DNA from: Leptolyngbya sp. SIOISBB
GTDB lineage: Bacteria; Cyanobacteriota; Cyanobacteriia; Phormidesmidales; Phormidesmidaceae
NCBI GenBank assembly: GCA_010671905.1
Contig: JAAHII010000001.1
Location: 5,456,001-5,520,000 of the forward strand
DNA length: 64,000 bases
Reading direction: 5' to 3'
Made by a program: the position numbers and the translations under genes. The notes beneath the pieces were generated by a model, which saw nothing but the letters and a program-made list of their open reading frames with translations, was not told where the DNA came from and searched no databases. Positions 57,311 through 62,936 of the stretch are shown one piece after another (position 1 is the first letter of the stretch; each line of letters opens with the position of its first letter).

Positions 57311-59698
57311 TTAGTTTCTTTCATCTGTGGCTAGAGTGATGAGCTGTTGCATTCGCAAAGCCTCAAATTGTCTATCACTCAAAAAGATATATCCCTCCGT
57401 ACCATGCCCGTAGTAAGACAGTGGGTAAAATCGTCCTTGAGGTACTTCAATAGCAGCAACGCTTTCCACAAATTCAAAGAAGCTAGGATCTAGCCAATCA
57501 CCGTCAAAGACTAGATCAGTGCTGTATCGAGTGCCATTCAAAGTAAACGCCACACTAGCGATCTGGTTTTCCCAATCGAAGCCATCATCAATATCGGTGG
57601 GATTGAAATTGCCCTGGGAAAGCCGAGCAAGTTCCTCAAGGAAATATTTATATGGATTTTCGCCTTCAGCACTTTCCCAATCGAACAGCACAATCACATC
57701 TTTAAAGGCCGATAGTAGCTGGTAAGGGTGAGTAATATATTGGCGGGCAATCTGCTTTTTGCCCTCAGAGATTTCTGCCTCACTGAGATGATCTAAAAGC
57801 TCAATATCTTCAAGGAGCGTGATGATTTCTGCGATGCGATCGCTAGTAAACGTATTTGCATAATCTGTGCCATGCCAGCCTCTTTCCCAGTAAACATCGG
57901 CTTGCGCTTCAGTTAACGCAATAACTCCAAACTCAGAGGAAACCACATTACCTATGAATGTGTAATCAAAGCTCGGAATCGAGAATAGTCGATACGGCGA
58001 TGATTGATCACGCAAAACTTTGTTGAATAAATCAACCAAGCCTTCCCTGTCTATAAGACTTAGAAAATCTCGCTCGCTGATCGGGGGGCTATAGTAATTG
58101 CTCTGTTGATAGGTGCGATCGTCGATTTGAACTGATACCACAGCATCATAGGTACGCCATTCGTTCGCAAACGTTTCCGAGAGATTTGATAAACCGCTTT
58201 GATTAAACTCGTACACCTCATCCAAGATCAGCTCAAGGTTAAATTCACCAATTTCGCCGTTGATGAGACCACCTTGATACAGCATTTGAGCCACTGACTG
58301 ATAAATCGCCGGAAAATATTGCTGAGGATCAAGAGAATAGTCGTTCAAATCAAGCACTTGAGCTCGATCAATATACCGCAAAAACTCAATCGGATTCGGT
58401 AACTCCGAGGCTTCAAGGGCTTCTAACAGCGATGTATACCCTTGGGCAGAGAGGATGCCGACTGATTGGAAATCATCCAACTGCGGTTTCACTAATTCAG
58501 GATCAACGGCTTCTTCACGTCTTGATAGAGAAACTGCTGCTCGATAAAGCACCGATGCATGAGGCACATACCCAGAGTTAATTTCGTTTTGCAGCTGGTT
58601 ATAAACAGATTCCCTGAGAACACCTGTGTTGTTCAGTTGCTCAAGCTGATGATGCATTTGTGCCAGCAGAGCTTGTACTTCTGGTGAATTAGCTGACTCA
58701 GAAGAGGGCGATATCACACTGACGAAAAGGCGGGCTCCACTTTGCTCCACTACTAGCTTTTGGAGGAGACTAGAACGCGCTCTAATAATTCCTTGTTCCA
58801 CCTCACGCAGCGTTCTGTTGTAAGCCTTGCCATCGAGGAGGCCCGCTTCATTAAGATTGTGTACTACCGCAACGAGAGACCCGTCGTCATCATTAGCGAC
58901 AGGTTCCTCCACTCCTTCAATGACATTGCCGAAAATTTGAATATTCAAATCCGCAGACTTATTCCAACCCTCTTCCGCATCAATAATGTATAAAAACTCT
59001 CCAATGTGACTAAAAGCAGACATCAAATCATCGGCACCTTGCTGAGGCGTGCCGCTAAGGGCAGCATTGGACGCATGGTTGTACCAAGCATGGCTATATT
59101 CTGTCTCCAGAAATTGACGACCGATTCCCTGCACCGAAAAGTTGTATCGACGGCCGCCTTCGATCACCCAGTTAAGGTTGTGAAAGTCAATTTGCCAGAT
59201 CGGGATCGTCGGGCCAAAGTTGAAATAGTTAGAGCTTCCAGGATTAGGATACGTCACTGGCGTGATGACTATATCAGAATTACTCGTTGCGCTACTGCCC
59301 TGAAGGAGTTCACCCGATGTCCGGATGGCCAATGGCTCATCCGAGGCTGTTCCCCCGAGCAATCTGATGTGGTTAAACCAGTCGCCCACGGCTGCAGGTA
59401 CAGATGGCCCTTCTTCTCGATATCCGAGGACTGCCCAGGTACGAATGTGGTTGATGACATAACGCTCTCCTGGGTTACCAATGATGAAATCATCGCCAGA
59501 AAAACGCTCATTGTCAGACCCCGCAGTCCAACGGATATTACTGCGTTCTGGATCCGGCTCAATGTTGAGATTCGTTGATGGCAGCCCTCGATCAAACAGC
59601 ATATTCTCGTCGCTAGCTTGTGCAGCACCAGCGATCGACAAGGTTAGCAAGAGAATGCCTCCCGCTTTCAACCAGTGAGCAAGCACTGCCATGAACAT
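57311..59698 (-). CDS. Large secreted protein, family unknown
   Basis: The 795-residue protein has a clear signal peptide (WLKAGGILLLTLSIAGAAQA, cleavage near residue 29). The mature N-terminal 250 residues look beta-rich (SNIRWTAGSDNERFSGDDFI, WFNHIRLLGGTASDEPLAIR). The middle is helical, with repeated Gly-Leu-Leu turns (LNEAGLLDGKAYNRTLREVE), and the C-terminus includes the segment LSYYGHGTEGYIFLSDRQFE. No named domain was recognised, and no export or anchor motif is seen at the end. The upstream and downstream genes belong to the mobile-repeat region. Confidence 0.75.
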   Translation of the reverse strand: MFMAVLAHWLKAGGILLLTLSIAGAAQASDENMLFDRGLPSTNLNIEPDPERSNIRWTAGSDNERFSGDDFIIGNPGERYVINHIRTWAVLGYREEGPSVPAAVGDWFNHIRLLGGTASDEPLAIRTSGELLQGSSATSNSDIVITPVTYPNPGSSNYFNFGPTIPIWQIDFHNLNWVIEGGRRYNFSVQGIGRQFLETEYSHAWYNHASNAALSGTPQQGADDLMSAFSHIGEFLYIIDAEEGWNKSADLNIQIFGNVIEGVEEPVANDDDGSLVAVVHNLNEAGLLDGKAYNRTLREVEQGIIRARSSLLQKLVVEQSGARLFVSVISPSSESANSPEVQALLAQMHHQLEQLNNTGVLRESVYNQLQNEINSGYVPHASVLYRAAVSLSRREEAVDPELVKPQLDDFQSVGILSAQGYTSLLEALEASELPNPIEFLRYIDRAQVLDLNDYSLDPQQYFPAIYQSVAQMLYQGGLINGEIGEFNLELILDEVYEFNQSGLSNLSETFANEWRTYDAVVSVQIDDRTYQQSNYYSPPISERDFLSLIDREGLVDLFNKVLRDQSSPYRLFSIPSFDYTFIGNVVSSEFGVIALTEAQADVYWERGWHGTDYANTFTSDRIAEIITLLEDIELLDHLSEAEISEGKKQIARQYITHPYQLLSAFKDVIVLFDWESAEGENPYKYFLEELARLSQGNFNPTDIDDGFDWENQIASVAFTLNGTRYSTDLVFDGDWLDPSFFEFVESVAAIEVPQGRFYPLSYYGHGTEGYIFLSDRQFEALRMQQLITLATDERN

Positions 59699-59792
59699 GC
59701 AAAAGGGTCGAGTGTACTACTAGAAAATCATATCTTTTACACTGGCATCTCGTAGTACCTTAAGTCGGTCTTGTCTTGCGACAGTAGAGCAA

Positions 59793-59845
59793 GTTACGGT
59801 GGCGACACTTTTCTGCCCTGTAGGGTGGGCACTGCCCACCGTAAC
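59793..59845. repeat. REP-like nested palindrome left of RAYT
   Basis: GTTACGGTGG (59793-59802) is the reverse complement of CCACCGTAAC (59836-59845), and inside the right part GGTGGGCA/TGCCCACC forms a further hairpin. Such palindromes flank RAYT genes and are their recognised substrates. Confidence 0.65.
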
Positions 59846-59907
59846 GTTTGCTGATGCTTTATTCCTTTAATGGGCAATCTGTCTAGGCAACCCCACCCGT
59901 CGCCGCT

Positions 59908-60661
59908 ATGCCCAACTATCGCCGCGTTTACATCCCAGGCAGTACCGTTTTCCTCACTTGGGTCACCTATTGCCGCACCCCGCTGTTCCATGAGCCTGAC
60001 AACATCAATTTGCTTCGCCAAGCTGTCCAACAAACTCAGCAAGAAGCTCCGTTTAAAATCGTGGCCGCTGCCATTTTGCCTGATCATACGTGAGTTCGAT
60101 GAAATAAAAGCTCAAAACCCCTAGAAATACGTGCGCTTGGAGATCAGCTATCCCAAAAGGGTTCTCATCAAATTTCCCTTGTTGAGAAAAATCGTCAGAT
60201 TCTCAATAGATTGCCTTTATTGCGAATATATTTTAGAGCAAGCTTTTCCAAAGACCTTGATTTGCCTGGATTGCAGCCACAAAATCCCGTCGAACTCACG
60301 TGATCATGTGCATTTCATCTGGACCTTACCTGATGGGGACAGCAACTATTCCATACGAGTCGGCAGAATTAAAGTCCTGTTTACGCGGGCTCTGCGTGGA
60401 CAAAATACTCAGCCGTTTGACCTATCTTCTTCTCGCCGGAAACATCGAGAAAGTGATGTTTGGCAACGTCGATTTTGGGAACACACCATCCGCAGCGACG
60501 AGGCGTTAGCCCATTCCCTTGATTATGTCCATTACAATTCGGTCAAACATGGGTTGGTCAGTTGTCCTCATTTGTGGCGCTATTCAAGTTTTGCCAAATG
60601 GGTGAGTGAGGGCCATTATTCTGGCGATTGGGCCTGTCAATGTGTCGGCCAATTGATTTAG
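59908..60661 (+). pseudogene. REP-associated tyrosine transposase (RAYT, Y1/HUH) split by an insertion
   Basis: The N-terminal part starts MPNYRRVYIPGSTVFLTWVT and runs to ILPDH at 60087. The gene is then interrupted by a 214-base insertion, and the sequence resumes HVHFIWTLPDGDSNYS, continuing to WACQCVGQLI at 60661. The metal-binding HUH-type motif DHVHF (His-x-His) and the catalytic Tyr region VHYNSVKHG are both encoded. Excising 60088-60301 and one copy of the 6-base duplication restores one open reading frame. RAYTs move REP palindromes, seen here on both sides. Confidence 0.85.
60088..60301. mobile_element. 214-bp MITE-like element inside the RAYT gene
   Basis: The insert has 12-base perfect terminal inverted repeats (ACGTGAGTTCGA ... 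TCGAACTCACGT), extended by further partial matches, and is flanked by GATCAT on both sides (60082-60087 and 60302-60307), a 6-base target duplication. It encodes no transposase and should be moved in trans. Confidence 0.85.
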
Positions 60662-60670
60662 AAGCGTTTT

Positions 60671-60709
60671 CTAAGGTGAGTGAATACGCTGGAGAATAAG
60701 AGGCTGAGC
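60671..60709. repeat. REP-like repeat, copy B, right of RAYT
   Basis: CTAAGGTGAGTGAATACGC followed by TGGAGAATAAGAGGCTGAG matches copy A at 56779-56817. It begins 10 bases after the RAYT stop, the usual position for the associated repeat. Confidence 0.6.
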
Positions 60710-60850
60710 TGTTACATGGCGTATTAGAGATGGTGAAACAGCCCAAAGATTAGCACAGTTGTTTAGAGAGAAAAATCTCCCAATTATTGTTAGACAATAC
60801 GATAATGGAGTATTGAGTGATCCAATCATCCCATAGCAAATTAGATTGAT

Positions 60851-61594
60851 TTGGAGACAGGAATCTTGAAGAAATTAGATAGAGAGTATGAATACACTCT
60901 AAGTCTGTCATCTTACTTCCCTCACTCAGAGGCAGCATTCTACGATGTCTTGAAGTGCAAAACTCTCAAGGATCTTATTTTTCCAGCAAGGTCACCAGTA
61001 TCAAGCTGGGAAAAATTCATCAATATTTCTTCGATTAATGATGTAAAGTCGAGAGATTTGATAGGTGAGCAAAGTTCTAGTAGTGACTTTTGTCTTTACC
61101 TATATGGCGACTCAGGAGTTGATTTAGTGATAAGAGTAATCGTTGAGTCAATATTAGGTAGCAGTAACTTAGTTATCAAGTTTTGTAAGCAGGAAAATGC
61201 TTTTCATAGCTTGGGGGTTGAATTAATTGAGAATCTTCTTTCAGAACTTGTACCTGTTTTTCGGCCATATTATGCTTCAGCCTACAGTAAAACAACTGGT
61301 TCAACATATCTTCCATCGGGGCAACCTAAATATTTCATGGATAAGCTGAGTAAAAGGCACTACCCATTACATGTTTGTTGGGTTTCCTACTTCGGCATAG
61401 ATATGCTCGATTTCTTAGGTGTCGAACGGTTTGATAGACTTGAGACTCATTATAAAAAGTATGAGTTGTTTCAAGGTATTTTGGTTGTCTTGCAGAAAGA
61501 CTCTCCTTTAGTAAATATTTCCTCGTACCAGAAGAGGCGAGATCAAGCAGAAATGGAGCTGGGTTTTCTGGAGTTACTTAATGGAAAACTGTAA
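60851..61594 (+). CDS. Hypothetical protein in AT-rich DNA
   Basis: The 247-residue protein has no signal peptide or membrane helix. Its C-terminal half (PVFRPYYASAYSKTTGSTYL, then LHVCWVSYFGIDMLDFLGVE) is vaguely like immunity proteins of polymorphic toxin systems, but I cannot name a family with confidence. Base composition is visibly AT-richer than that of the flanking core genes, suggesting recent acquisition. TTG 60851 or TTG 60866 is the likely start; there is no ATG near. Function unknown. Confidence 0.6.
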   Translation: METGILKKLDREYEYTLSLSSYFPHSEAAFYDVLKCKTLKDLIFPARSPVSSWEKFINISSINDVKSRDLIGEQSSSSDFCLYLYGDSGVDLVIRVIVESILGSSNLVIKFCKQENAFHSLGVELIENLLSELVPVFRPYYASAYSKTTGSTYLPSGQPKYFMDKLSKRHYPLHVCWVSYFGIDMLDFLGVERFDRLETHYKKYELFQGILVVLQKDSPLVNISSYQKRRDQAEMELGFLELLNGKL

Positions 61595-61796
61595 ATTTAA
61601 TCTTTATTGTATGTGTAATTATTCCTTGTGATAGGTTTAGTGCAAGTTCCTCTCGCTGCACATCGCATTTTCATAAAAAACTAACCCGCAAGCGAGCCTA
61701 GTCGTAGGTTGGGTTGCCGCTAGAAAACCCAACACACAAATGTTTGATTACGAAACTATCCGTCAATCCTAATGGCACGAATCAATCGCCATTAAC
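61595..61796. other. Gap with partial REP-like copy
   Basis: No gene is seen. GTAGGTTGGGTTGCCGCTAG and AAAACCCAACACACAAATG at 61704-61742, continuing to about 61773, match the left part of the 153-bp repeat at 62784. It is a third, partial copy of that element. Confidence 0.6.
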
Positions 61797-61938
61797 ATGC
61801 ACTACCGCCGTGCTAAAGCACCCAGAACGACCTATTTCTTTACTGTCGTCATCTACAACTGTCAGCACCTCTTCAAGCATCCTGAAACCATACGACTCCT
61901 TCGGCAGTCCTTCCACGCAGTCAAGCAACAGATCACTC
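61797..61938 (+). pseudogene. N-terminal fragment of a second RAYT transposase
   Basis: The frame from ATG 61797 reads MHYRRAKAPRTTYFFTVVIY, then NCQHLFKHPETIRLLRQSFH and AVKQ, matching the RAYT N-terminus. It then runs into the repeat sequence and stops, without the His-x-His or Tyr motifs. This is a truncated and inactive copy unrelated in reading frame to the one at 59908. Confidence 0.7.
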
Positions 61939-62091
61939 CTCGCCACATATTGAATTTCCGTCAAAAAACCCAACTTGTAGATGTTTAATTAAGACGCCAT
62001 TCGTCAATACTAAAAGCGTGTGAATAATGGAGAATTCACATTAGGAATGTTGGGTTTCGTTTGCTTAACCCAACCTACGGCGAGGTGCGAT
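61939..62091. repeat. 153-bp direct repeat, left copy
   Basis: This copy and 62784-62936 are equal in length and differ at about 19 positions by hand count (roughly 88% identity). Both contain AACCCAAC and GTTGGGTTTCG as an internal inverted repeat. They lie on either side of the lipoprotein gene. Confidence 0.85.
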
Positions 62092-62172
62092 TTTACTTTA
62101 GTATTTTTCAATACTTGCTTAAGCGAGTTTTCTACAAGACCTTTAAGTAGTCAAAATCGAGGCATGAGACAT

Positions 62173-62772
62173 ATGAAAAAAATATTGCTAATACATGCAT
62201 GCATGTTCTCTTTCATATCGATTTGGCAGGTGAGTTGCGCATCGCATGAACTCACGTCAAATGAATCCTTATTGACGAATGACTCTTTTCAATCAGGATC
62301 CAGCAGATTGGAGTCAAACATGCCAGAAAGATCAGAGGAAAATACCTCAGGGAATTTTCACGTTGAGCATTCCCCAGTATGTGAAAGTACTTTGTCTGGA
62401 ACTTATAAAAATAGCATCGGGGACATAGCAACTGTTGAATCTGTAGAAGGAAAATCTATTCCGCAGGACAAAGTTAGTATTTTTCTTGAGCAAGAAGACT
62501 TTCAGGAATCTTTGAGTTTTACCTACACTACTCCTATCGGTTATGGAATACGAGAAACGATCAGCGACGATATACGTAATGAATCACCTGCGGGCAACCA
62601 AGAACGTTCAATATACTATTCAAATTTAGGCAGTTGGAAAACTGCAGTGTTTGGAGAAGGAAATCCTTTCTGGTATTCGGATAGAAGAGTGAACCTCCAG
62701 GATTCTATTTGGTTTCGAGTGTTATGCACAATTGATGTTGAAGCAGCTAAAAACTTATCAGTTCCAATCTAG
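62173..62772 (+). CDS. Putative lipoprotein, family unknown
   Basis: The protein of about 199 residues starts with a signal peptide MKKILLIHACMFSFISIWQV and a lipobox VSC, giving a lipid-anchored cysteine. The mature part is Ser- and Asn-rich without a recognised domain, ending in WFRVLCTIDVEAAKNLSVPI. ATG 62164 (MRHMKK) is an alternative start; the longer frame from 62020 lies partly in the repeat and is unlikely. It is flanked by direct repeats and may have been moved with them. Confidence 0.7.
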   Translation: MKKILLIHACMFSFISIWQVSCASHELTSNESLLTNDSFQSGSSRLESNMPERSEENTSGNFHVEHSPVCESTLSGTYKNSIGDIATVESVEGKSIPQDKVSIFLEQEDFQESLSFTYTTPIGYGIRETISDDIRNESPAGNQERSIYYSNLGSWKTAVFGEGNPFWYSDRRVNLQDSIWFRVLCTIDVEAAKNLSVPI

Positions 62773-62783
62773 TGCGATCGCCC

Positions 62784-62936
62784 CTCGCGACATATTGAAT
62801 TTCCGTCAGAAAACCCAACACACAGATGTTTAATTAAGACATCATCCGTCAATACTAAAAGCATGTGAATAATGGAAGATTCATATTAGGAATGTTGGGT
62901 TTCGTTTGCTCAACTCAACCTACAGCGATATGCGAT
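62784..62936. repeat. 153-bp direct repeat, right copy
   Basis: Right partner of the repeat at 61939-62091, in the same orientation. The core GTTGGGTTTCGTTTGCT and the CTCAACTCAACCTAC that follows is typical of cyanobacterial RAYT-linked repeats. A partial third copy is at 61721-61773. Confidence 0.85.

Follow-up and report, generated by a model that had tools for sequence, protein, structure and literature searches.

A MITE with IS982-type ends interrupts a RAYT transposase gene in Leptolyngbya sp. SIOISBB

Near the right end of the window, the whole 64,000-nt stretch of Leptolyngbya sp. SIOISBB DNA that was analysed, a RAYT transposase gene is broken by a short insert (59908–60661; positions without a contig label are those of the window). 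What is this insert, which transposase brought it there, and what is left of the gene that it entered? The two flanks match successive parts of the RAYT model NF047646 (model length 146). The 5′ half, 60 codons ending in Asp-His (59908–60087, plus strand), covers model positions 1–58 at 56.7 bits; the 3′ part, in which the D-H-V-H-F motif is complete (60302–60661, plus strand), covers positions 57–146 at 108.6 bits, and, taken singly, the 5′ half falls short of the cut-off of 80 bits while the 3′ part exceeds it. RAYT homologues from six loci, the best-scoring of 30 fetched, align to both halves with no gap at the insertion point. The flanks are one RAYT gene, contiguous on the model and on the six homologues. 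The best of these, from a congener (L091), matches the 5′ half at 68% over 60 aa and the 3′ part at 78% over 116 aa, with dN values of 0.24 and 0.15, respectively, and saturated synonymous sites. To another homologue (L095) it is the 5′ half that is more similar, at 62% versus 58% for the 3′ part. In Pfam, the 5′ half alone was matched, weakly, by Y1_Tnp, and the 3′ piece and the ORFs next to the gene had no match; the RAYT identity was settled by the NCBIfam model NF047646.

The insert is a 214-bp MITE at 60088–60301 (plus strand). Its left terminal inverted repeat, ACGTGAGTTCGA, occupies 60088–60099 on the plus strand, and the same 12 bases are found on the opposite strand at 60290–60301; the two arms are 12 nt long, 100% complementary and spaced by 190 nt. 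The element is bounded by direct copies of GATCAT (60082–60087 and 60302–60307, plus strand), which at 6 bp are the longest exact direct repeat at its two edges. Repeat analysis of both edges thus confirmed the original prediction of a 214-bp element with 12-base inverted ends and a GATCAT duplication, and the split RAYT gene is itself of mobile-DNA kind, as the original description of mobile DNA nested in mobile DNA had it. In being short, in ending in terminal inverted repeats and in having no transposase gene, the element corresponds to a bacterial MITE. Six-frame translation revealed no long frame common to the MITE copies, and a search of 59600–61000 against Rfam gave no match up to E 1. 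Folding of the MITE DNA is better than that of shuffled versions (z −3.15), 1 of 200 of which folded as well.

A lone 12-base end is weak evidence, as single matches occur at chance level. At up to two mismatches the end is found 7 times in the window against 4.07 expected, and at up to one mismatch 41 times in the genome against 44 for the reversed control. Exact matches number ten in the genome; seven of them are assigned to elements, and the others lie at C1:671143, 946878 and 1957407. Because single ends are found near chance, the MITE call rests on the pairing of the ends, on the duplication and on the existence of further copies. For end pairs, the shuffled control gave 0 pairs versus 8, a rough yardstick only because the shuffle was mononucleotide and the loci were selected and partly overlapping. 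The chance level of single ends could also be read as a sign that the inverted repeat is fortuitous, or the assembly wrong, and that no mobile element exists here. We regard this as practically negligible: the RAYT gene is contiguous across the insertion, and the genome of another species holds a complete copy of the MITE with a duplication of its own.

Other copies exist in the genome itself. BLAST returned five places, which represent four locations: the window, a complete copy at 87% (C1:124553–124765), an interrupted copy with both ends present (C1:783318–783659; L007:1819–2160) and an 84-base end fragment (C1:437776–437859; L008:1777–1860). The complete copy in the congener, at 83%, came from one of the 94 other genomes searched, and a 25-base degenerate end pattern found one contig in the genome collection, probably the congener's record again. 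The 6-bp duplication differs at each of the three full-length copies that are uninterrupted (GATCAT, TAAATA and TGTCCA); the interrupted copy has no target-site duplication. The MITE is therefore dispersed at a modest copy number, with four locations in its own genome and one in the congener. The original prediction had staked its reading on the existence of other copies with the same ends, and with complete copies in both genomes that reading survived.

Two of the other copies have features of their own. The copy at C1:783318–783659 is split by a repeat of ~127 bp that seems to have duplicated 3 bp (TAG), and a similar repeat is located close by in the same locus; here, mobile DNA is nested within the MITE. 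A 470-aa Pro/Glu-rich ORF, TonB-like to the eye, takes its final codon and its stop (ACG TGA) from the 84-base fragment at C1:437776–437859. The MITE end brings a ready-made stop codon both to this ORF and to the gene in the window.

Which transposase could have moved an element that encodes none? The check proposed for the original prediction, a search for an element that has the same ends together with a transposase, led to the other contig of the genome, where an IS982-family element of 1008 bp lies at C2:78983–79990. Its ends form an inward-facing pair with 1 and 0 mismatches in 12 and are flanked by a 6-bp duplication, CGAACA; its 306-aa transposase scores 246 bits against the IS982 model NF033520 (cut-off 130). 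The MITE and this same-genome element agree in their ends and in duplication length. We inspected 24 IS982 loci from this and related genomes, some of them clipped by contig ends. Both ends were within three mismatches of the MITE end at 13 of the 24, one end at 7 (weakly so at L050 and L051) and neither at 4; the clipped L072 was counted with one GG-type end. In the congener that bears the MITE, one IS982 locus (L064) retains a single end on its contig, and this end matches exactly. An IS982 element from another genus of the family (L061) has the same 12-base ends and 6-bp duplication as the MITE.

End type and duplication length can be compared among these elements. Five IS982 elements have GA-type ends like those of the MITE, with an exact 6-bp duplication in two and none in three. 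Among the seven with GG-type ends, the duplication is 7 bp in five, 8 bp in one and only 2 bp in one; the single element with mixed ends has a 2-bp duplication. On these small numbers, a 6-bp duplication is what the end type of the MITE would lead one to expect. As a separate observation, the base that follows the shared ACGTSAGTTCG tracks duplication length among related IS982 elements (L066, L089 and L068–L071 versus L049 and L061): A-type ends go with 6 bp (2 of 2 elements with a duplication), and G-type ends with 7 or 8 bp (all 6 of those whose duplication exceeds 2 bp).

The end search also returned elements other than the MITE. A 143-bp element (L044:1433–1575; C1:1853932–1854074) has like ends, with one mismatch each, and a TATCTG duplication; its internal sequence is unlike that of the MITE, making it a second MITE with IS982-type ends. 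A 105-bp pair in L021 was rejected as a MITE copy on account of its GG-type ends and the absence of an exact duplication. An end pair in L114 was taken as chance, with 3+3 mismatches and an imperfect duplication.

We consider it very probable that the insert is a non-autonomous MITE with IS982 ends that an IS982-type DDE transposase, of a jumping-gene family common among cyanobacteria, moved in trans into the RAYT gene, most likely inactivating it. This reading builds on the MITE and its duplication, the other copies with duplications of their own, the uninterrupted RAYT homologues and the IS982 element whose ends and length of duplication match. Counting against it are the three GA-type IS982 elements and the interrupted MITE copy that lack a duplication, and the want of convincing similarity to IS982 elements inside the ends. 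The transposase of the C2 element, or of a near relative, would have moved the 214-bp element, its source acting in trans. Insertion duplicated the 6 bp that encode Asp-His of the HUH motif, and the first bases of the MITE add Thr-stop behind them, most likely leaving the RAYT inactive. The genome also contains a second, more distant group of IS982 elements; its ends, of the type ACGCGATGTGC, differ from those of the MITE, and it was therefore dropped as a source.

An alternative is that the MITE is genuine but is mobilised by a DDE transposase from a different family, with ends that only look like those of IS982. Interior sequence gives this idea some room. MITE and IS982 elements were compared at 56 ends, with 5 comparisons at p <0.05 (lowest 0.003; ~3 expected), and over whole elements in 10 comparisons, with 1 at p <0.05 (0.04); convincing kinship beyond the 12–15 terminal bases was not found in these comparisons. 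In addition, matches to IS5 and IS4 family models overlap weakly with the IS982 protein. Against another family stand the shared 12-base ends and the 6-bp duplication length, which recur both in the IS982 element of the same genome and in L061 of another genus; moreover, the end matches inspected, to uneven depth, across the 41 revealed none that belonged to an element of a different family. We therefore judge a foreign transposase family to be unlikely. Under the preferred IS982 reading, the lack of convincing common sequence beyond the ends suggests that two captured ends, and not a simple internal deletion, may have given rise to the MITE.

What did the insertion do to the gene? It fell at the Asp-His codons of D-H-V-H-F, and those six bases are the ones duplicated. 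The insert and the duplication add 220 bp, which shifts the RAYT frame. The frame of the 5′ half closes inside the MITE at 60091–60093, and the 5′ piece ends D-H-T-stop. The right copy of GATCAT re-supplies Asp-His, so the 3′ piece regains the whole HUH motif (D-H-V-H). The predicted split within the His-x-His motif is thus correct as to place, but the duplication restores the first His and the motif stays complete in the 3′ piece; it is the frame that is broken. The 3′ piece lacks the 58 residues that precede the motif. All six aligned homologues have these residues, and E. coli TnpA-REP (4er8) has its motif starting at the same distance from its N-terminus. Most likely, the MITE insertion inactivated the RAYT gene.

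The original prediction further held that an in-frame start inside the insert restores a long hybrid frame. Such a frame does exist (60131–60661, plus strand): it starts at a GTG inside the insert and runs for 176 aa, with 57 MITE codons followed by the 3′ part of the RAYT. It lacks the first 58 RAYT residues, and it looks accidental. Over four comparisons of MITE copies, substitutions in the MITE part of the frame are spread evenly over codon positions 1, 2 and 3 (34, 26 and 27), the congener's copy has a stop within the frame, and the other complete copy in the same genome has a 1-bp deletion within it. No sigma-70-type promoter was found in 59750–60400. The hybrid frame is probably accidental, its MITE part bearing no sign of coding selection, and 60131–60661 is likeliest a pseudogene whose 3′ part has yet to gather stops.

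These data also bear on the idea that the insert made a working gene, in which either the hybrid frame, with a MITE start joined to the HUH/Tyr domain, or two co-expressed pieces would act on REP DNA. The 3′ frame is indeed open for 176 codons with an in-frame GTG, and it keeps D-H-V-H and the conserved C-terminal part. We nevertheless find a working gene very improbable in view of the missing pre-motif residues, the even substitutions, the stop and the deletion in other copies, and the promoter search. Still less credible is the idea of a new gene, whether a chimera started within the MITE or a RAYT in two pieces, that would keep the HUH motif, bind or nick REP DNA and now regulate or repress the spread of REPs.

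REPs lie on both sides of the gene, as the original prediction had it, yet they belong to two different families and hence do not form a matched pair. The upstream REP, GTAGGGTGGGCACTGCCCACC (59820–59840, plus strand), is of the GTAG type and has 19 genome matches at up to two mismatches, with 0 in the control; these represent 15 places, as four palindromes were matched on both strands. By eye, a similar repeat is located beside the RAYT homologue in the congener. Downstream of the RAYT, the window contains no match to this family at up to two mismatches, and the gene is thus not flanked by its own REP family on both sides. The downstream REP (61704–61733, plus strand) is a GTAG-type repeat of a second family, with 14 genome matches at up to two mismatches and 0 in the control. 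It lies ~1 kb past the RAYT stop codon, beyond a 247-aa ORF with no family match in Pfam or NCBIfam, and adjoins the 5′ remnant of a second RAYT (61797–61985, plus strand), which matches NF047646 positions 1–44 at 34.3 bits, below the cut-off of 80. This second REP family (GTAGGTTGGGTTG..AACCCAAC) is clustered, with 9 of its 14 genome matches falling within 14 kb (C1:5517704–5532085); the cluster (61704–62923 of the window and onward) starts beside the second RAYT remnant.

The closest described parallel is MITECca01 of Cardinium cOegib, whose parental element is reported to be ISCca4 of the IS982 family and which disrupts other mobile elements (PMC9769881). As described there, MITECca01 is ~240 bp long, has no transposase gene, ends very like an IS982 element with intact copies in the genome, and sits in intergenic regions and inside other mobile elements (PMC9769881). 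It differs from the present MITE in its number, 169 copies compared with four own-genome locations, and in a short parental sequence beside its left end, whereas the present MITE has no convincing shared interior (PMC9769881). IS982 elements are given as ~1 kb long, with 57 of 69 beginning with AC, and ISNsp1 of Nostoc as having a 6-bp direct repeat (PMC7335449). The C2 element fits this description (PMC7335449); the MITE, having no transposase gene, can share only its ends with the family. REPtrons, RAYTs with GTAG REPs, have been described, and GTAG REPs are known in cyanobacteria (PMC3733652, PMC2817692). The interrupted gene resembles them in matching the RAYT model and adjoining a GTAG-tagged palindrome (PMC3733652, PMC2817692), but is split by a DDE-type MITE and has REPs of two families nearest to it.

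Disruption of other mobile elements by a MITE with IS982 ends is thus already on record (PMC9769881). Within the material searched, we noticed no case of a MITE inserted in a RAYT and claim novelty no further than that. The locus offers a clean cyanobacterial case, in which one genome contains both a MITE bearing IS982-type ends and the element that probably supplied its transposase. A search of this genome with the RAYT 3′ half, which could miss more distant RAYTs, gave a single degraded copy as the only other RAYT of the same type, and on this ground we read the break in the RAYT as part of REP/RAYT decay. The insertion is of an ordinary kind and changes no general idea; for this genome, it is a step in REP/RAYT decay that can still be read from the sequence.
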